Shown: positions 1,952 to 13,169 of the stretch, one piece after another | Layout: each line of letters begins with the position of its first letter | Numbering within the stretch: position 1 is the first letter of the stretch | DNA from: Halothiobacillaceae bacterium | Lineage (GTDB): Bacteria > Pseudomonadota > Gammaproteobacteria > Halothiobacillales > Halothiobacillaceae | Length of the DNA: 34,512 nt | Assembly (NCBI GenBank): GCA_028696185.1 | Contig: JAQVHL010000011.1 | Coordinates: 1 to 34,512 of the forward strand | Direction: 5' to 3' | Notes under the pieces: generated by a model | The model's database searches: none | Seen by the model: the letters and a program-made list of their open reading frames with translations, nothing else | What the model was told of the DNA's origin: nothing | Program-made: the position numbers and the translations under genes

Positions 1952-2320
1952 ATGTCCAAGACCATCATGATCGTCGATGACTCCGCCTCGCTGCGGCAGG
2001 TTGTGGCCCTGGCCCTCAAGGGTGCGGGCTACGACGTGATCGAAGCCGCCGACGGCAAGGACGCGCTGTCCAAGCTGACCGGCCAGAAGGTTCACCTCAT
2101 CATCAGTGACGTGAACATGCCGAACATGGATGGCATCACCTTTGTCAAGGAACTCAAGCAGAACCCGAGTTACAAGTTCACGCCGGTCATCATGCTGACC
2201 ACCGAGTCCCAGGAAGGCAAAAAAGCCGAAGGTCAGGCCGCCGGCGCGCGCGCCTGGGTGGTCAAGCCGTTCAAGCCCGAACAGATGCTTGCGGCGGTTT
2301 CCAAGTTGATTCTGCCCTGA
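1952..2320 (+). CDS. cheY: CheY-type chemotaxis response regulator
   Basis: A single 122-residue receiver domain with all canonical residues: D9-D10 (VDDS), phospho-acceptor D53 (SDVNMP), T83 (MLTTES), and K105-P106-F107. The segment after T83 (ESQEGKKAEGQAAGARAW) is typical of CheY proteins next to cheA. Phosphorylated by CheA, it would bind the flagellar switch or another motility output. AGGAG lies 11 nt before the ATG. It sits 44 bp after the MCP and is followed by the STAS gene and cheA. The cluster has no cheZ, so its dephosphorylation route is open. Confidence 0.92.
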   Translation: MSKTIMIVDDSASLRQVVALALKGAGYDVIEAADGKDALSKLTGQKVHLIISDVNMPNMDGITFVKELKQNPSYKFTPVIMLTTESQEGKKAEGQAAGARAWVVKPFKPEQMLAAVSKLILP

Positions 2321-2345: not shown

Positions 2346-2666
2346 ATGCTCAGTGTCGACACGGAAACGAAAGACGGCGTCACCCGCCTGCATCTGAAGG
2401 GCGATTTGACCATCTATTCGGCAGCGGCCTTCCGCGAAACCCTGCTGGAACTGCTGGTACCGGGGCTGACCCTGGAAATGGATTTGGGTGGCGTGAACGA
2501 GCTGGATACCGCTGGCGCGCAGCTTCTGCTCGTTGCCAAACGCGAACTGGCAGCCCGCGAAGGCCAGCTGAAGCTGCACAACCACAGTCCAGCCGTCATC
2601 GAAGTCCTGGATCTGCTCAATCTGGCGGGGCACTTCGGCGATCCGCTGCTGATCGAGGCTCACTGA
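2346..2666 (+). CDS. STAS-domain protein in chemotaxis cluster
   Basis: A 106-residue single STAS domain (anti-sigma-factor-antagonist fold, MlaB-like subgroup). The signature loop before helix 2 reads ELDTAG, with D54-T55 at the position where partner-switching STAS proteins are phosphorylated on Ser/Thr. GGAGGG lies just upstream of the ATG, and the gene ends 10 bp before cheA. No anti-sigma kinase of the SpoIIAB type is nearby, so a classical partner switch is not supported. It may act as a small docking protein within the chemosensory complex. The domain call is good; the role is unknown. Confidence 0.8.
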   Translation: MLSVDTETKDGVTRLHLKGDLTIYSAAAFRETLLELLVPGLTLEMDLGGVNELDTAGAQLLLVAKRELAAREGQLKLHNHSPAVIEVLDLLNLAGHFGDPLLIEAH

Positions 2667-2676
2667 GGAACCCATC

Positions 2677-4863
2677 ATGAATCTGGACCAGGCACTCATT
2701 ACCTTCATCGCGGAAAGCCGCGAACTGCTGGAAGACATGGAAGCCGCCCTGCTGCGCATGGAAGGGCAGGGCGAAGGCGACCCGGAAACGGTCAATGCCG
2801 TGTTCCGCGCCGCGCATACCATCAAGGGCTCCGCCGGCCTGTTCGGTCTGGACGCCGTGGTGGCCTTCACCCATGTCTTCGAAAACGTGCTCGATGCGCT
2901 GCGCGACGGACGTCTGGCATTTGGCGGGGAGCTTGCCGCCTTGTTCCTGGAGTGCGGCGATCACCTGCAGGGCCTGATCCTGCGCGTGGAAGCCGGTGAG
3001 CTGGACGCGCCACCGCCCCCCGTAGAAGCCGAACTGCTCAAGCGCCTGCGCGCCTTTCTTGCCGACGAAGGCAGCAAGAAGGCGGAAACTGCGCCGCCCA
3101 AAACGCAGCTTCCCCGCGAAAAGGAAGCCTCGGTGCGCCCGCTGGGTGGCAATGGGGTGCAGACCGACCACTGGCATATCTCCCTGCGTTTCTCGCCCGA
3201 TGTCTTGCGCCACGGCATGGATCCGCTGTCCTTCATCCGTTATCTGGGCACGCTGGGCCAGGTGCTGCATGTGCAGACCTTGAGCGACGCACTGCCAGCG
3301 CTGACCGAAATGGACGCCGAAAGCTGCTATCTGGGCTTTGAGATCGCCTTTGCCAGCGAGGCGAGCAAGGCGGAAATCGAAGGGGTGTTCGAGTTCGTGC
3401 GCGACAGTGCCGACATTCACATCCTGCCGCCCAACAGCCAGATCGAGGAATACATCCGTCTGATCCACGAGCTGCCGGAAGACGACCTCAAGCTGGGTGA
3501 AATCCTGGTGCGCTGCGGCACCCTGACCGACAGCGAGCTGACCCGCGCGCTGGCTGACCAGCGTGCCGGTGAGGAAGCCGGCGCGGCGCGCCCGCTGGGC
3601 GAGATTCTCGTTGAATCGCAATCTGTACAGGCTCCCGTGGTGGATGCCGCGCTGGACAAACAGCAGCAGATCAAGACCCAGAAGCAGCAGGAAACCCGCT
3701 TCATCCGTGTGGATGCCGACCGTCTGGGACAGCTCATCAATCTGATCGGTGAGCTGGTCATCACCAATGCCTCGGCCCAGCTACAGGCCCAGCGTGCCGG
3801 TCTGAGCGATCTGATCGAAGCCACCTCCAGCATGGCGCGGCTGGTCGAAGAAGTGCGCGACTCCGCGCTCTCGCTGCGCATGGTGCAGATCGGTGCCACC
3901 TTCTCCAAATTCCAGCGCGTGGTCCGCGATGTCTCACGTGAACTGGGCAAGGACATCGAACTCATCATTACCGGCGGTGATACCGAGCTGGACAAGACCG
4001 TGGTCGAGCGCATCGGCGACCCGCTGACCCATCTGGTACGCAACTCAATGGATCACGGCATCGAGTCGGCCGAGGTGCGCCGTGCACGCGGCAAACCGGC
4101 CACCGGGCGCGTCATCCTGAATGCCTATCACGATTCCGGCAGCATCGTCATCGAAATCTCCGACGACGGCGGCGGGCTCAACCGTGAGCGCATCCTCAAG
4201 AAGGCCCTGGAACGCGGGTTGATCGAGCCAGGCCACAACTTAAGCGACCGCGAGATTTATCAGCTGATTTTCGAGCCGGGGTTCTCCACGGTGGATCAGG
4301 TGACCAATCTGTCCGGGCGCGGCGTGGGCATGGATGTCGTGCGGCGCAATATCAACGAGCTGCGCGGCAGCATCGAGCTTGACAGCGAAGAAGGCAAGGG
4401 CACGACCATCCGCATCCGCCTGCCGCTGACCCTGGCCATTATCGATGGCTTCCTGGTCGGCGTGGGCGCGTCGTCCTATGTCGTTCCGCTGGACATGGTC
4501 AAGGAATGCGTGGAGCTGCGTGGCGAAGACATGGCGAAGAGCACTAAGGGCTATCTGAACCTGCGTGGCGAGGTGCTGCCGCTGGTGCGTCTGCGCGAGT
4601 TGTTCGACACGCGCGAAACCGCAGGCGGGCCGCGACGTGAAAACGTGGTGGTGGTGGGCTACGGCGACATGAAGGCCGGTCTGGTGGTGGACGCCCTGCA
4701 TGGCGAGTACCAGACCGTCATCAAACCCCTGGGACCGCTGTTCAGCGGGGCGCGGGGGATCGGGGGGTCCACCATTCTCGGTACCGGGGATGTGGCGCTG
4801 ATTTTGGATGTTCCGCTGCTGGTGCGTGTGGCGTCTTCACACGAACCGGCACTGACGGCTTGA
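2677..4863 (+). CDS. cheA: Chemotaxis histidine kinase CheA with MshEN-like insert
   Basis: This 728-residue kinase phosphorylates CheY and CheB in response to MCP/CheW input. Domains in order: HPt at about 1-105 with phospho-accepting H47 (RAAHTIKGSAG); linker; a P2-like region at about 165-250; two MshEN-like repeats at 272-295 (KLGEILV...ALADQ) and 306-329 (PLGEILV...ALDKQ); dimerisation helices at about 341-405; HATPase with the N box at 456-463 (NSMDHGIE), DDGGG at 496-500 and GRGVGMDVV; and a C-terminal CheW-like domain. The length is normal for CheA. AGGAAC precedes the ATG. The gene follows cheY and the STAS gene and precedes an MCP and cheW. The kinase identity is certain; the meaning of the repeats is inference. 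Confidence 0.96.
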   Translation: MNLDQALITFIAESRELLEDMEAALLRMEGQGEGDPETVNAVFRAAHTIKGSAGLFGLDAVVAFTHVFENVLDALRDGRLAFGGELAALFLECGDHLQGLILRVEAGELDAPPPPVEAELLKRLRAFLADEGSKKAETAPPKTQLPREKEASVRPLGGNGVQTDHWHISLRFSPDVLRHGMDPLSFIRYLGTLGQVLHVQTLSDALPALTEMDAESCYLGFEIAFASEASKAEIEGVFEFVRDSADIHILPPNSQIEEYIRLIHELPEDDLKLGEILVRCGTLTDSELTRALADQRAGEEAGAARPLGEILVESQSVQAPVVDAALDKQQQIKTQKQQETRFIRVDADRLGQLINLIGELVITNASAQLQAQRAGLSDLIEATSSMARLVEEVRDSALSLRMVQIGATFSKFQRVVRDVSRELGKDIELIITGGDTELDKTVVERIGDPLTHLVRNSMDHGIESAEVRRARGKPATGRVILNAYHDSGSIVIEISDDGGGLNRERILKKALERGLIEPGHNLSDREIYQLIFEPGFSTVDQVTNLSGRGVGMDVVRRNINELRGSIELDSEEGKGTTIRIRLPLTLAIIDGFLVGVGASSYVVPLDMVKECVELRGEDMAKSTKGYLNLRGEVLPLVRLRELFDTRETAGGPRRENVVVVGYGDMKAGLVVDALHGEYQTVIKPLGPLFSGARGIGGSTILGTGDVALILDVPLLVRVASSHEPALTA

Positions 4864-4917: not shown

Positions 4918-6579
4918 ATGTTCGGAAATATGCGTATTGGAGTGCGGCTCGGCCTGGGCTTCGCCGTGGTGGTGTTGCTCATGATCGGGGTGGGCATCGT
5001 TGGCTTCATGCAGATGGGCGCCTTGAACGACTCGGTCAACAAGGTGGTCTACGACCGTTGGCCCAAGACCGTGCAAGCCAACCATATAATTGATAATGTC
5101 AATATTACCGGTCGAGCTGTGCGTAACATGCTGATCCTAAATGACGAAGCTTTGCACAGCCGCGAACGCGAGCGCATAGCCACGGTCATTAAGGACACCG
5201 GTGAGACTTATGCGAAGCTGGAACAGAGCATCACATCGCCCAAGGGCCGCGAGCACCTGAACAATGTCAAAAATGCCCGGCAGAACTACCTGGAGGCGAT
5301 GAAAGAACTCCTGCGTCTGATGGAAGTGGACAGGGACAAGGCACGCGATCAGTTCAATCGCGATTTCCGCCCGGCCAACAATGCGTTTATCGAGGCGGTC
5401 AACGGCCTGATCAGCTTCCAGTCACAGCTGGTAGACGAAGCGGGCAAGGAAACCGATGTGATCTACGCCAAAGGCGCCCAGATCATTGGCGCCCTGCTGC
5501 TGATCGCCGTCCTGTTCGCGGTGGGGGTCGCCTTCTGGATCACCCGCAGCATTACCCGTCCGGTGTCCGAAGCGGTCAGCGTTGCCAACCGTCTGGCGGA
5601 AGGCGATCTGACCGTGAAGGTCGAGTCCCGCACCCGTGACGAAACCGGCCTGCTGCTGCTGGCGATGGGCCAGATGGTGGAAAAGCTTACTCAGATCATT
5701 GCCGAGGTGCGTGTCGCGGCCGACGGACTGTCCAGCGCCTCCGAAGAAGTCAGCGCCACCGCGCAGAGCCTGTCCCAGGCGTCCAGCGAACAGGCGGCCT
5801 CGGTTGAGGAAACCTCCGCGACGCTGGAAGAGGCCAGCGCCTCCATCCAGCAGAACACCGAGAACGCCAAGGTCACGGAAACCATCGCCAGCAAGGCGGC
5901 GCGCGACGGCGAACAGGGCGGCGAGGCGGTCAAGGCCACCGTCACCGCGATGAAGAGCATTGCCGAAAAGATCAGCATCATCGACGACATTGCCTACCAG
6001 ACCAATCTGCTGGCGCTGAACGCGGCCATCGAGGCGGCGCGCGCCGGGGAGCACGGCAAGGGCTTTGCGGTGGTTGCCGCTGAAGTGCGCAAGCTGGCGG
6101 AGCGCTCGCAGGTGGCGGCGCAGGAAATCGGCCAGGTGGCCGGCAGCTCGGTGGAGCTCGCCGAGCGCGCCGGCAAGCTGCTCGATGAGATCGTCCCCTC
6201 CATCACCCGCACGTCCGATCTGGTGCAGGAGATTTCTGCCGCCTCCGAGGAGCAATCGTCCGGTATCGGCCAGATCAATGTGGCGATGGAGCAGCTCAAC
6301 CAGCTGACCCAGCAGAATGCGTCGGCGTCCGAAGAGCTGGCCGCCACCTCCGAGGAGATGAGCGGTCAGGCCGAGCAACTGCAGCAGCTGATGAGCTTCT
6401 TCCGTATCGAGAACACGGGACCGGCCAGCCGCACCGTGAATTATGGCGGTCATGGCGGCGCTTCGGTGAAGAAAAAGCCCGCTGCCGCACGTCCGTCCGG
6501 CAAACCGGTCAGCGTGAACCGCTCGCGTGACAACGCCGAGAACACCACGCTCGACGATGCCGATTTCGTCCGCTTCTGA
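4918..6579 (+). CDS. Methyl-accepting chemotaxis protein, four-helix-bundle sensor type
   Basis: A 553-residue chemoreceptor. TM1 lies at about 11-32, a helical periplasmic four-helix-bundle-type sensor at about 33-187, TM2 at about 188-209, HAMP at about 210-262 and the signalling coiled coil at about 270-500. The hairpin tip contains [18 protein letters not shown]. Glu/Gln/Ala-rich stretches ([20 protein letters not shown] and [14 protein letters not shown]) are the expected methylation helices acted on by CheR, CheB and CheD. A flexible tail ends in DDADFVRF, a type of tail seen on receptors that tether adaptation enzymes. GAGGG precedes the ATG. Its signalling half is nearly the same at DNA level as that of the MCP at 7370. 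Ligand unknown. Confidence 0.95.
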
Positions 6580-6592
6580 GGAGGGGCGAGCC

Positions 6593-7141
6593 ATGACATC
6601 CAACGCACTGACTCTCTCCGGCGCCCTGCGGCAGCCGGAGATGGAAGGGAACAATCAGTTCCTGACCTTCATGCTCGATGGTGAAACCTTCGCCATCGGC
6701 ATCCTGGCGATCAAGGAAATCATCGAATACGGCAGCCTGACCACGGTGCCGCTGATGCCGGTTTTCGTGCGCGGGGTCATCAACCTGCGCGGCGCGGTGG
6801 TACCGGTGATCGACCTGTCCGCCCGCTTCGGGCGCGGGGTGACTTCCGTGAACCGTCGCAGCTGCATCGTCATCGTGGAAATCGAGGGCGAGGAGGGCTC
6901 GCATGACGTGGGCGTGGTGGTGGACGCGGTCAACGAGGTGCTGGACATCGATGCCGCACAGATCGAGCCGCCACCGAGCTTCGGCGCGGGTATCCGCTCG
7001 GAGTTCATCCGGGGCATGGGCAAGATCGACGGACAGTTCGTCATCATCCTCGACGTCAACCGCGTGCTGTCGGTCGAGGAAATGAGCCAGGTCGCCCAAC
7101 TGGGTGAGAGTGCCCCGGCCGCTTTGCCTGCCGGCGCCTGA
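6593..7141 (+). CDS. cheW: Chemotaxis coupling protein CheW
   Basis: A 182-residue CheW-domain protein linking MCPs to CheA in signalling arrays. It has the family hallmarks FLTFMLDGETFAIGILAIKEI, VRGVINLRGAVVPVIDL and, near the end, GKIDGQFVIILDVNRVL. The start at 6593 is chosen because GAGGAGGGG lies just upstream and it begins 13 bp after the MCP stop. An upstream in-frame start at 6527 would overlap the MCP end by about 50 bp and adds no conserved sequence. The C-terminal 20 residues are a low-complexity Ala/Pro tail. A terminator follows at 7183-7207, so this gene may close the first transcription unit. Confidence 0.95.
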   Translation: MTSNALTLSGALRQPEMEGNNQFLTFMLDGETFAIGILAIKEIIEYGSLTTVPLMPVFVRGVINLRGAVVPVIDLSARFGRGVTSVNRRSCIVIVEIEGEEGSHDVGVVVDAVNEVLDIDAAQIEPPPSFGAGIRSEFIRGMGKIDGQFVIILDVNRVLSVEEMSQVAQLGESAPAALPAGA

Positions 7142-8941: not shown

Positions 8942-9051
8942 GAGCGAAATCCATGACACGGTCCCTTTCACCAGCGTCTTTTCACGTCGGTTTTCCGGCC
9001 TGATTTTGGGCCGATGGATTGTATTCTCGTAAGCGAGCCAGGAGATCGAAC

Positions 9052-9861
9052 ATGCACGAAGGATTGCTGAGCCTGTCGGACAGGGAGTTTTCCCTGTTCC
9101 AGCGCCTGATTTTCGAACGTGCCGGAATCAGTATGGGGCCGGCCAAGCGGGCCTTGATTGCTGGCCGTCTGACCAAGCGCCTCAAGGCGCTGGGGCTGGG
9201 CAGCTTTGCCGATTACCACGCCTATCTGACGCAGCGCGGCAATGAGGGCGAGCTGCAGCAGGCGGTTGATCTGCTGACGACCAATGAAACCTATTTCTTC
9301 CGCGAACCCAAGCATTTTGACTTCCTGCGCGAGCAGATCCTGCCCAAGGCCAATACGACCCGTCCGTTGCGCATCTGGAGCGCGGCCTGTTCCAGCGGTG
9401 AGGAGGTCTACACCCTGGCCATGGTGCTCGCCGAACACCATGCGGGCGCCTGGGAGATTTTGGGTTCTGACATCAGTCAGCGCGTGCTCGCCCAGGCGCG
9501 CAGTGCGCATTACCCTATTGATCGCGCCGAGGATATTGCCCCTGCGCTGCTGAAGAAATACTGCCTCAAGGGCATTGGAGCGCAGCAAGGCAGCTTTCTC
9601 GTCGACAAGCCCCTGCGTTCGAAGGTACGCTTCGAATCGATCAACCTGAATGAGCCCTTGCCGCGCGTGGGTGAGTTCGATGTGATCTTCCTGCGCAATG
9701 TCATGATCTATTTCGACATGGCCACCAAGCGCGAGGTGGTGGAGCGGCTGGTGGCACAGTTGCGTCCTGGGGGATACTTCATCGTCAGTCATTCGGAAAG
9801 CCTGAATGGCGTCACCGAAATCCTGCGCGTCGTGAGTCCCTCGATTTACAGGAAGCCCTGA
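9052..9861 (+). CDS. cheR: Chemotaxis protein methyltransferase CheR
   Basis: A 269-residue SAM-dependent enzyme that methylates glutamates on MCP signalling helices. It has an N-terminal helical domain (about 1-75), then the Rossmann methyltransferase domain with TTNETYFFRE (76-84), the SAM-binding loop SAACSSGEEVYTLAM (about 110-124), the SDIS motif and FLRNVMIYF. ATG 9052 is chosen because AGGAG lies at 9040-9044; a TTG at 9019 would add only a basic non-conserved leader. It begins a coupled run with cheD (2-bp gap), cheB and the EAL gene (both overlapping). Confidence 0.95.
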   Translation: MHEGLLSLSDREFSLFQRLIFERAGISMGPAKRALIAGRLTKRLKALGLGSFADYHAYLTQRGNEGELQQAVDLLTTNETYFFREPKHFDFLREQILPKANTTRPLRIWSAACSSGEEVYTLAMVLAEHHAGAWEILGSDISQRVLAQARSAHYPIDRAEDIAPALLKKYCLKGIGAQQGSFLVDKPLRSKVRFESINLNEPLPRVGEFDVIFLRNVMIYFDMATKREVVERLVAQLRPGGYFIVSHSESLNGVTEILRVVSPSIYRKP

Positions 9862-9863
9862 TC

Positions 9864-10376
9864 ATGTTGCCCCCGTCGGAAGGCAGCATCGACATCTTCC
9901 TGCAACCGGGAGAGCTGTATTTTGGGGATCGTCACACGCGCATACGTACCTTGCTGGGCTCCTGCGTGTCCATCACGCTGTGGAACCCCTGGCTGAAGAT
10001 CGGCGGCATGTGCCACTTCATGCTGCCCACGCGCGGGCATGTCGGGCCGCACCTGGACGGACGCTATGGCGATGAGGCCCTGGCGCTGTTGCTGCGCGAA
10101 ATCCGCGCCTCGCGCAGCCGCCCCGGCGACTATGAAGTAAAGCTTTTCGGTGGCGGAAACATGTTTCCCGAACACTGCAGCCGGCACGATAAGCTGTCCG
10201 TGCCCAAGCGCAATGTGGAATCCGCGCGGCGCATGCTCAAGGCGCACGGGCTGGTCATTCATGCCGAACATGTCGGAGGTTCGGGGCACCGGCAGTTGAT
10301 TTTCGATGTGGGTAACGGTCATGTCTGGCTCAGACACCGTGCACTGGGACACGAACAGGAGCGGGATAACGCATGA
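9864..10376 (+). CDS. cheD: Chemoreceptor glutamine deamidase CheD
   Basis: A 170-residue CheD. It converts specific MCP glutamines to glutamates and so adjusts receptor output. The catalytic residues are visible: C34 in [10 protein letters not shown] and H51 in MCHFMLP, with the 17-residue Cys-His spacing of the family. A conserved FGGGNMF motif follows. The gene starts 2 bp after cheR and overlaps cheB by 4 bp (ATGA), so the three adaptation enzymes should be made together. In some bacteria CheD is controlled by CheC or CheX; neither gene is in the window. Confidence 0.94.
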
Positions 10377-11467
10377 ACACGGCAGCGATACGGGTGCTAT
10401 TGGTCGACGATTCGGCCGTGGTGCGTCAGGTTCTGACCGGACTGCTGGACAGCGACCCGGAGATCCGCGTGATTGGCGCCGCCGCCGATCCGATTTTCGC
10501 CCGCGAGAGAATGGCCAAGGAATGGCCGGATGTCATTGTCCTGGATGTGGAAATGCCCCGTATGGACGGCTTGACCTTCCTGCGCCAGATCATGGCCGAG
10601 CGGCCCACGCCGGTCGTGATCTGCTCGACGCTGACCGAGAAGGGCACCCAGACCTCCATGCAGGCACTGTCCGCCGGCGCCATCGCGGTAATCGCCAAGC
10701 CCAAACTCAATGTAAAAAATTACCTGCAGGACGCCAGTTCGGAAATCGTCTCTGCAGTCAAGGCCGCCGCACAGGCGCGCATGGGCCGCATCAATCGCGC
10801 CCCGCTTACGGCCACCGTGCCCGTTGCGGCGGCCATACCGCAGGCCCCCTTGTCTGCGTCCGCTCTCGCACGTACCACGGAACAGGTCGTGGCCATCGGC
10901 ACCTCGACCGGCGGCACGCAGGCGCTGGAAGTCGTGCTGTCGGCCTTGCCCTCGGTGTGCGCGGGCATCATCATCGTTCAGCACATGCCGGAAAAATTCA
11001 CCGCGGCCTTTGCCTCCCGTCTGGACAGCCTGTGCCAGATCGAGGTCAGCGAAGCGCAGAATGGCGACCGTGTACGCGCTGGGCGCGCGCTGATCGCACC
11101 GGGCGGACGGCACATGGTGTTGCGGCGCAGTGGGGCACAATATTACGTCGAGGTGCTGGACGGGCCGTTGGTCAACCGGCACCGGCCTTCGGTGGATGTG
11201 ATGTTCCGCTCGGTGGCGCGTACCGCAGGCGGCAACGCGCTGGGAATCATCATGACCGGCATGGGGGACGACGGTGCGCAGGGCATTGCCGAGATGCGCC
11301 AGACCGGCGCGCTGACCCTGGCGCAGGACGAGGCAAGTTGCGTGGTTTATGGAATGCCGAAGGAAGCGGTCAAACGTGGCGGTATCGTGCGCTCGGTGAG
11401 CCTCGATGCCATTGCCGCCGAGATCGTCCAGTATGGGGCAAGCGGGGAGATGGGGCATGGTCGCTGA
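10373..11467 (+). CDS. cheB: Chemotaxis methylesterase/deamidase CheB
   Basis: A 364-residue CheB that removes receptor methyl groups when phosphorylated by CheA. The N-terminal receiver domain has D12-D13 and phospho-acceptor D58 (VLDVEMP). A linker of about 130-170 follows, then the methylesterase domain with the catalytic triad S178 (GTSTGG), H204 (VQHMP) and D300 (MTGMGDDG), with the same spacings as Salmonella CheB S164/H190/D286. The start overlaps cheD by 4 bp, and the end overlaps the next gene by 11 bp. Confidence 0.96.
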
Positions 11468-13169
11468 ACACATGGAACGCGCGCTCAAGGTGCTGATCGT
11501 AGAAGACTGCGAGGATGATTACATCCTGCTCAAGGCCCATCTTGAGGAAGCAGGCTACGCATTGATCGAACAGAACGTCGCCAGCGCACGGGGCCTGGAG
11601 GAAGCGCTCAATGCGCGTGAATGGGACATCGTGCTCAGCGATCACAACATGCCCGGTTTCAGCGCCATTGCCGTGCTGGACATCGTGCGCGGGCAAGAGT
11701 CCGATCTGCCGGTCATCATCGTTTCCGGCAGCATGCCAGACGCAACGGCGGTTGAGGCCATGCGTCTCGGGGCGCGGGATTTCATCGAAAAAGGCAAGCT
11801 TTCCCGCCTGGTGCCCGCCATTGAGCGTGAGATCAGCGAACAGTGCGTTCGTCGCGATCTGCGCGCCATGGAAGCCCGCGCCCAATGGCTGATGCACTAC
11901 GACGCACTGACCGGTCTGCCCAACCGCGATTACCTGTTCGGTTACCTGCGTAATCTGATCCAGCGTGCGCCGCATTTGGGTTTTGGCGTGCTGGTGCTGG
12001 ACATCAACCGCTTTCGCAATGTCACGCGCAGCCTGGGGCTGCTGGCCGGCAACGAAGTGCTCAGCGTGCTGGCCGACCGGCTGCGCGAGGAGTTTGAAAG
12101 CAATGCAATGGGCTTTGTCGCGCGTCTGGTGGCGGATCGCTTCGTCATCGTCTGCCAGGGGTCGCAAGCCCAAGACAGCCTGCAGGTAGTTTTCAATCGC
12201 CTGCGTGCCTTGCTTGAGCCCCCCGTGCTGGTCGGCGGGCGCGAGCTGTTCGTGCATGTCTCGGTCGGGGCCTGCCTGTATCCTGCGCACGCGCAGAGCG
12301 CGCATCAGCTCCTGCAACTGGCCGAAACCGCCCTGTATTGCGCCAAGGAAGAAGGGCCAGGACGCTACCGCATCTATGATCCGGCGATGAGCGCCTCCAG
12401 TGAGGAGCGTCTGGCACTGGAAAGCGCTTTGCATCACGCCATCCGGCAGAAGGAATTCGAGCTGCATTACCAGCCGCAGATCGACCTGGGCAGTGGGAAG
12501 CTCATCGGCGCCGAAGCCTTGGTGCGCTGGAATCATCCCCAACTGGGAATGGTGTCTCCGGCGCGTTTCGTACCCCTGCTGGAAGAAACCGGGCTGATCG
12601 TGCCCGTCGGTGAATGGATTCTGCGCACTGCCTGCGAAGAAGCCCAACGCTGGCATACCGCCGGACATCGCGACCTGCGTGTGGCAGTGAATCTGTCCGC
12701 CATCCAGTTTCAGCAGGCTGAATTGGTTACGGTGGTGGCTCGGGTACTGGAAGAAACCGGTTTGCCGCCCAGTGCGCTGGAGCTGGAAATCACCGAAAAC
12801 ATCGCCATGCACAACGAGGAGTTCGTGATTGCCACGCTTGCTCAGATTGGTGCTTTAGGCGTGCATATCGCCATTGACGATTTCGGCTCGGGTTATTCTT
12901 CCCTGAGTTATCTCAAGCGTCTGCCGGTTCACAAGCTCAAGATCGATCAGAGTTTTGTGCGCGAACTGGAAGAAGCGGGCCGTGATGCCGCCATTGTGCT
13001 GGCCATCGTTGCATTGGGGCGCAGTCTGGAAATGCGTGTGATTGCCGAAGGCGTGGAAACCGCCGAACAGGCGAAGTTCCTGCAACAGAACGGTTGTGAA
13101 GAAGGGCAGGGCTATTATTTCGACCGTCCGCTGCCTGCCGCGCGTTTTTTTGAACGTCTGGAAAAGTAA
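11457..13169 (+). CDS. REC - degenerate GGDEF - EAL response regulator (predicted c-di-GMP phosphodiesterase)
   Basis: A 570-residue protein. The receiver domain (about 10-128) has D17, D20 and phospho-acceptor D62 (LSDHNMP). The GGDEF domain (about 145-305) carries VADRF at 225-229 instead of the signature, so cyclase activity is unlikely. The EAL domain (about 318-565) keeps EALVRW (353-358), the ELEITEN motif, [11 protein letters not shown] and IAEGVET, so phosphodiesterase activity is predicted. ATG 11457 is chosen because GGGGAG lies just upstream; it overlaps the cheB end. In-frame ATGs at 11406 and 11472 are less likely. Placement suggests CheA or a partner kinase phosphorylates the receiver and so tunes c-di-GMP breakdown. 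The phosphorylation partner is inference. Confidence 0.93.

Follow-up and report, generated by a model that had tools for sequence, protein, structure and literature searches.

An MshEN Domain, Likely to Bind c-di-GMP, in the P2-P3 Linker of a CheA Kinase from a Halothiobacillaceae Bacterium

The Chemosensory Cluster and Its CheA Kinase

The window analysed here is a stretch of 34,512 nucleotides of contig JAQVHL010000011.1 (assembly GCA_028696185.1) from a Halothiobacillaceae bacterium, and its forward strand carries a chemosensory gene cluster that includes the cheA gene considered below (Table 1). Before cheY lie a receiver gene (331-711) and, overlapping it, a short MCP-like gene (708-1907) whose product ends in DITFF. 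In the best 80 relatives of this CheA the order CheY, STAS, CheA, MCP, CheW, CheR, CheD and CheB recurs as far as the contigs reach. In an alignment to Tsr (36H) only, the chemoreceptor MCP2 shows a gap of 7 residues per arm, that is, one heptad less in each, and is by this measure 34H-like. In addition, an aromatic-x-x-aromatic C-terminal tail, a pentapeptide of the CheR-docking type, is found in all 54 first downstream receptors that were scored. Published F8 systems have 34H receptors (PMC11253619, PMC7184735), and the one of P. syringae is described with a receptor that carries a C-terminal pentapeptide and whose gene lies two genes away from that of CheR (PMC11253619). Gene order, the 34H-like receptor and the C-terminal pentapeptide thus lead, with moderate confidence, to the assignment of the cluster to the F8 chemosensory class on sequence features. 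Specifically, the likeness to the F8 systems of P. syringae (PMC11253619) and Methylomicrobium alcaliphilum (PMC7184735), as far as the accessible text of these two accounts goes, lies in the receptor, which is of the 34H type there and 34H-like here, and the same text makes no mention of MshEN.

Table 1. Features of the cheA locus in the window, with position, strand and basis of each assignment.
Feature	Position	Strand	Basis
CheY-type single receiver	1952..2320	+	ORF; match in 76/80 relatives, mostly at the same position
STAS-domain-like protein (named by eye), immediately upstream of cheA	2346..2666	+	ORF; same place in 76/80 relatives
CheA, 728 aa: P1 (Hpt) - P2-like - MshEN - P3 - P4 - P5	2677..4863	+	ORF; Pfam
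P1 / Hpt phosphotransfer domain, residues 7-98; phosphorylation box AAHTIKGSAG	2695..2970	+	PF01627, E 5.6e-17
P2-like domain, residues ~164-255, predicted ferredoxin-like fold	3166..3441	+	AlphaFold model m24a1383361f9
MshEN N-subdomain (c-di-GMP-binding type by sequence), residues 272-329, predicted four-helix bundle	3490..3663	+	NF053729; model m91e040603011
Motif I KLGEILVRCGTLTDSELTRALADQ, residues 272-295; contact-type K272 L273 G274 L288 L292 Q295	3490..3561	+	Translation; conservation over 110 relatives
Spacer RAGEEAGAAR, 10 residues	3562..3591	+	Translation
Motif II PLGEILVESQSVQAPVVDAALDKQ, residues 306-329; contact-type P306 L307 G308 V322 L326 Q329	3592..3663	+	Translation; position conservation
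Long helix, residues ~319-342, extending from helix 4 of MshEN as far as the boundary of P3 (dimerisation)	3631..3702	+	Predicted models
Membrane chemoreceptor MCP2, tail DFVRF (pentapeptide-like)	4918..6579	+	Alignment to Tsr; tail
CheW	6527..7141	+	ORF; conserved in relatives
CheR	9019..9861	+	ORF; conserved in relatives
CheD	9864..10376	+	ORF; conserved in relatives
CheB	10373..11467	+	ORF; conserved in relatives
REC-GGDEF-EAL protein, optional neighbour	11406..13169	+	ORF, translation, GGDEF family match

The Pfam families Hpt, H-kinase_dim, HATPase_c and CheW all match the window CheA above their cut-offs and in the order of a CheA kinase, and the Pfam scan returned nothing at residues 99 to 340, a stretch that includes both the P2-like domain and the MshEN segment. 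The P2-like domain (residues 5-96 of model m24a1383361f9) reaches VIA-align Z scores of up to 9 against ferredoxin-like folds. This domain is common to many CheAs, both with and without MshEN.

Identity and Predicted Fold of the Segment between P2 and P3

The forward strand of the window from 3490 to 3663 reads KLGEILVRCGTLTDSELTRALADQ-RAGEEAGAAR-PLGEILVESQSVQAPVVDAALDKQ, which corresponds to residues 272-329 of CheA. The sequence-only reading of this DNA had described here two tandem MshEN-type motifs, at residues 272-295 and 306-329, and the description is confirmed by the translation, by the NCBIfam family NF053729 and by matches among proteins of known structure in the PDB. The first motif departs from the 24-residue consensus, as that reading had counted, by a Lys for Arg at position 1 and by one other mismatch, T for L/V/I at position 11. 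The second copy, rightly called degenerate, is off consensus at four positions, with P at 1, Q for G at 10, S at 11 and V at 17. In other words, Arg1 is absent from both motifs, with K272 and P306 in its place, and the turn residue Gly10 is present as G281 in motif I and replaced by Q315 in motif II; Gly3 (G274 and G308) and Gln24 (Q295 and Q329) are found in both. The gap of 10 residues between the copies was also given correctly. The further argument, that a gap of 23 residues is known in type II secretion ATPases and that the shorter one seen here makes the segment MshEN-like and not canonical, is to be rejected, since the two 24-residue motifs of MshE from V. cholerae are separated by a spacer of 5 residues (PMC5013675), so that the gap of the window CheA is longer, not shorter, and since the spacers of its relatives span from 5 to 23 residues, mostly 8-10, a range in which 10 is typical.

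The family NF053729 ('c-di-GMP_motif, MshE-related') is a 53-residue two-motif model with a cut-off of 38 bits. It matches residues 272-329 with an E-value of 2.9e-9 when the segment is searched alone, with a score of 36.6-36.7 bits, just below the cut-off, and of 38.6 bits, above it, in the genome-wide search. The only other match in the genome of this organism falls at the N-terminus of a 571-aa protein, encoded on a different contig, that is probably a pilus or secretion ATPase. A phmmer search of the segment against PDB chains retrieved PilF (E 2e-7) and PilB (E 1.5e-3), with the best stretch being PilF 303-360, that is, the GSPII-C domain, whose motif II likewise begins with PLGEILVE. The same family is matched by all 25 aligned CheA relatives (best E 1.7e-13), and a profile built from these 25 finds PilF (1.7e-17), PilB and MshE (5htl) in the PDB. 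Among the families listed for 10 CheAs of other clades NF053729 is absent, with the restriction that for 6 of them a very weak match could lie beyond the 25 families listed.

With respect to structure, a Foldseek search with a model of P2 and MshEN together returned P2-like folds only, with no MshEN listed, and for this reason the segment was modelled alone. In the joint model (pLDDT 88.6) P2 is ferredoxin-like and the last MshEN helix extends to the start of P3; this long helix corresponds to residues 160-182 of m24a1383361f9 and to residues 64-86 of the model of the segment alone, m91e040603011. The latter (pLDDT 93.6), computed from an alignment of relatives and with no ligand, is predicted as a four-helix bundle made of two helical hairpins, nearest to c-di-GMP-bound MshE and PilF (1.3-1.9 A). 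In particular, VIA-align superposes it on MshE with c-di-GMP (5htl) with a Z score of 9.2 at 1.9 A over 59 residues, on PilF GSPII-B with c-di-GMP (8pdk) with a Z score of 9.2 at 1.3 A over 57 residues, and on the N-terminus of Xanthomonas PilB with a Z score of about 7; the comparison values are 3.6 for PilF GSPII-A, which does not bind, and no more than 3.3 for unrelated chains. Foldseek with the segment alone gave weak E-values (5htl, E 1.5, probability 0.98). Weak values of this kind are expected for a helical domain so small, and middling Z scores are common among helical bundles. The case for the fold is consequently made on the VIA-align superposition, in which the top rows all belong to the MshEN family and stand well above the remaining ones, and the case for the domain on the sequence profiles. 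Sequence profile, PDB matches and predicted fold agree in identifying CheA 272-329 as a genuine MshEN N-subdomain.

That an Ala/Leu-rich helical linker looks like the MshEN motif purely by chance would be in keeping with the helical nature of the segment and with the blank Pfam result, but this reading is refuted by the NF053729 E-value of 2.9e-9, the PDB matches, the match in fold, the hits in 25 of 25 relatives and the restriction of the module to one clade.

Like MshE (5htl), the segment consists of tandem 24-residue motifs, with Gly3 and Gln24 in both, and of a predicted four-helix bundle. It differs from MshE in having a spacer of 10 and not 5 residues, K and P for R at the motif starts and Q for the turn glycine of motif II, in the absence of MshEN_C and in its position inside a CheA kinase. 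With PilF of Thermus thermophilus it shares the K at the start of motif I (GSPII-B) and the P at the start of motif II (GSPII-C); PilF is, however, a pilus ATPase, and the motif II of its GSPII-C domain retains the turn glycine.

Conservation and Origin of the Module among CheA Relatives

When the P2 and MshEN region was used as a query, matches were found in 109 of the 369 genomes of the class, about 40 places spanning both P2 and MshEN, and the relatives in named genomes number at least 503. The best 80 come from Azoarcus, Gallionella, Methylophilus, Dechloromonas, Herbaspirillum, many Pseudomonas species and others; in the Pseudomonadaceae a match is present in 51 of 198 genomes, part of these matches covering P2 only.

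In the structure of MshE, the backbone amides of Gly3 and of residue 4 bind the guanine, on which leucines stack, and Gln24 binds ribose and phosphate (PMC5013675). Across about 110 CheA relatives, Gly3 is present in 100% (motif I) and 98% (motif II) of the sequences and Gln24 in 100% and 99%, respectively, and both Leu17 and Leu21 of motif I reach 98%. The motif starts are looser, motif I opening with R or K in 85% of the 110 relatives (R in 75%) and motif II with P in 71% and R in 7%, and the turn glycine at position 10 of motif II is present in 23% only. In a non-redundant set of 79 relatives below 80% identity, the median entropy is 0.58 bits at the contact positions, taken as the published contacts of MshE, vs 2.29 bits elsewhere (Mann-Whitney p 4e-4, a value to be read as indicative, as the rows share ancestry). 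The checks named in the sequence-only reading, namely a profile search, a structure prediction of the segment alone and the state of the motif residues in orthologues, came out in favour of MshEN also on this last count, with Gly3 and Gln24 of both motifs intact together in 77 of the 79. Outside the ligand-contact set, T284 (3526-3528) and E287 (3535-3537) are near-invariant or invariant in the same 79 relatives, and they may mark a contact specific to CheA.

A tree built on the kinase cores of 69 CheAs places 28 of the 29 MshEN-bearing CheAs in one clade of 30 (SH-aLRT 97), which adjoins a pair of divergent CheAs with weak or partial matches. The remaining two members of the clade (L009 and L231) are without MshEN and represent two apparent losses, with the reservation that the tree is a quick one and the placement of its long rows, L009 among them, unsure. 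MshEN is found in 0 of the 37 CheAs across the tree from this clade, many of which have the same P2 type. Since the module is confined to one CheA clade, it was probably gained once in this lineage and rarely lost. In three further members of the clade (L058, L060 and L061) the MshEN module is eroded; together with the two losses, they offer natural cases for functional comparison.

The association of MshEN with CheA is already known, being named by Wang et al. 2016 (PMC5013675) in a single sentence. In the literature searched for MshEN or T2SSE_N with CheA, that sentence was the only mention and no test of the fusion was found. The main text of the paper, as available, gives the same domain pairing without the chemosensory class, the conservation or the contact residues of CheA. 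Class-wide conservation of MshEN in CheA thus appears not to have been reported in the literature searched, and to the 2016 sentence the present analysis adds the clade-wide conservation, the state of the contact residues, a probable single origin of the module and its probable assignment to F8 systems.

c-di-GMP Binding and Its Possible Effect on the Kinase

The MshEN identity of the segment and the conservation of its contact residues across the CheA clade make it likely that the domain binds c-di-GMP, as the sequence-only reading had suggested it could; this judgement draws on sequence and on the predicted model. The known binders tolerate the departures seen at the motif starts. Specifically, PilF GSPII-B, with Lys and Leu replacing Arg, binds c-di-GMP at 6 nM (PMC11731258, PMC12002112), and PilF GSPII-C, whose motif II starts with Pro, binds at about 0.3-0.5 uM (PMC12002112, PMC11731258), so that Arg1 is not strictly defining. 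Moreover, the isolated 62-residue N-subdomain of MshE binds c-di-GMP alone, at 0.35 uM (PMC5013675), and the absence of MshEN_C in CheA is therefore no obstacle. Against binding, the NF053729 score lies at the cut-off, Pfam is blank and the fold is predicted from an alignment of relatives and is ligand-free. In addition, motif II is without the turn Gly10, by which the second hairpin differs from that of canonical MshEN, and the affinity may for this reason be low.

These departures bear on a different reading, that is, that the bundle is kept merely as a structural spacer or as a protein docking module in the P2-P3 linker, with c-di-GMP binding lost. The turn glycine of motif II is missing in most relatives, the module is lost in two clade members and eroded in three others, and MshEN domains that do not bind exist, namely XpsE and PilF GSPII-A. 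The latter is a well-folded domain in which both Gln24 and more are lost, and restoring the consensus alone does not rescue binding (PMC12002112); the window CheA, however, keeps both glutamines. More generally, the known non-binders have lost several of the contact residues (Q to V, H or R), whereas in the CheA module Gly3 and Gln24, which contact the ligand, belong in either motif to the positions that vary least, and the two glutamines are not obviously demanded by the fold alone. A purely structural or docking role is, on this evidence, unlikely, and c-di-GMP binding is the preferred reading.

As for the source of the ligand, the genome of this organism (2.9 Mb) encodes 53 GGDEF domains, a dense c-di-GMP network, and c-di-GMP is hence very likely made in the cell, so that sensing by CheA would need no local enzyme. 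The REC-GGDEF-EAL protein encoded after cheB has a degenerate GGDEF signature (LVADRF) and EAL signature residues that look intact by eye, and is therefore probably a phosphodiesterase under receiver control, which could make up a loop together with a CheA that senses c-di-GMP. The sequence-only reading had drawn support from this neighbour, but the argument is too weak to keep. Among the 80 close relatives, 19 have an EAL gene nearby (among the 49 with full flanks, 13, downstream in 7 of these), as does 1 of 20 wider relatives, vs 0 of 20 loci of CheAs without MshEN, counts that come from one query protein of limited sensitivity and from control loci nearly all of one flagellar type. Near the nearest orthologue (L163), no REC-GGDEF-EAL gene was found within the stretch searched. 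The gene is not a conserved partner of the MshEN-bearing CheA.

The position of the domain suggests how binding could be transduced. In the proposed mechanism, the MshEN N-subdomain would be inserted in the P2-P3 linker of an F8-type CheA, its two 24-residue helical hairpins forming a four-helix bundle that would bind one molecule of c-di-GMP, and its last helix appears to reach straight to the P3 dimerisation domain. Binding would then alter the reach of the mobile P1-P2 arm to P4, or the packing of CheA in the array, and autophosphorylation or phosphotransfer would be set by the cellular level of c-di-GMP. That c-di-GMP directly controls the kinase output in this way, whether up or down, we hold to be about evenly balanced. 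Alternatively, binding could serve localisation, array assembly or the coupling to an EAL/GGDEF partner and not direct kinase control. In P. aeruginosa, Pch is tied to polar CheA (PMC10212136), CheA1, the F8 kinase of P. syringae, influences biofilm traits and has WspR as an interaction partner (PMC11253619), and the window itself has the REC-GGDEF-EAL gene after cheB. The scarcity of EAL genes near the relatives argues against such a role, and MshEN adjoins P3 and does not sit at a terminus; we consider this alternative rather unlikely.

If c-di-GMP is indeed bound by CheA, the conserved pair Q295/Q329 provides a clean handle on function. In the literature consulted, c-di-GMP is linked to chemosensory systems via partner proteins (WspR, Pch), and a c-di-GMP receptor within CheA would represent a direct route from the messenger of biofilm and motility to the array. 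This would also give a concrete role to F8-type systems, whose kinase in P. syringae, according to the available part of the published account, affects biofilm traits and does not drive chemotaxis there (PMC11253619). Tentatively, and with a likelihood that falls somewhat short of even, the F8-type arrays of beta- and gammaproteobacteria, including many Pseudomonas, may thus possess a kinase with a built-in c-di-GMP receptor, through which the messenger would directly set CheA signalling.
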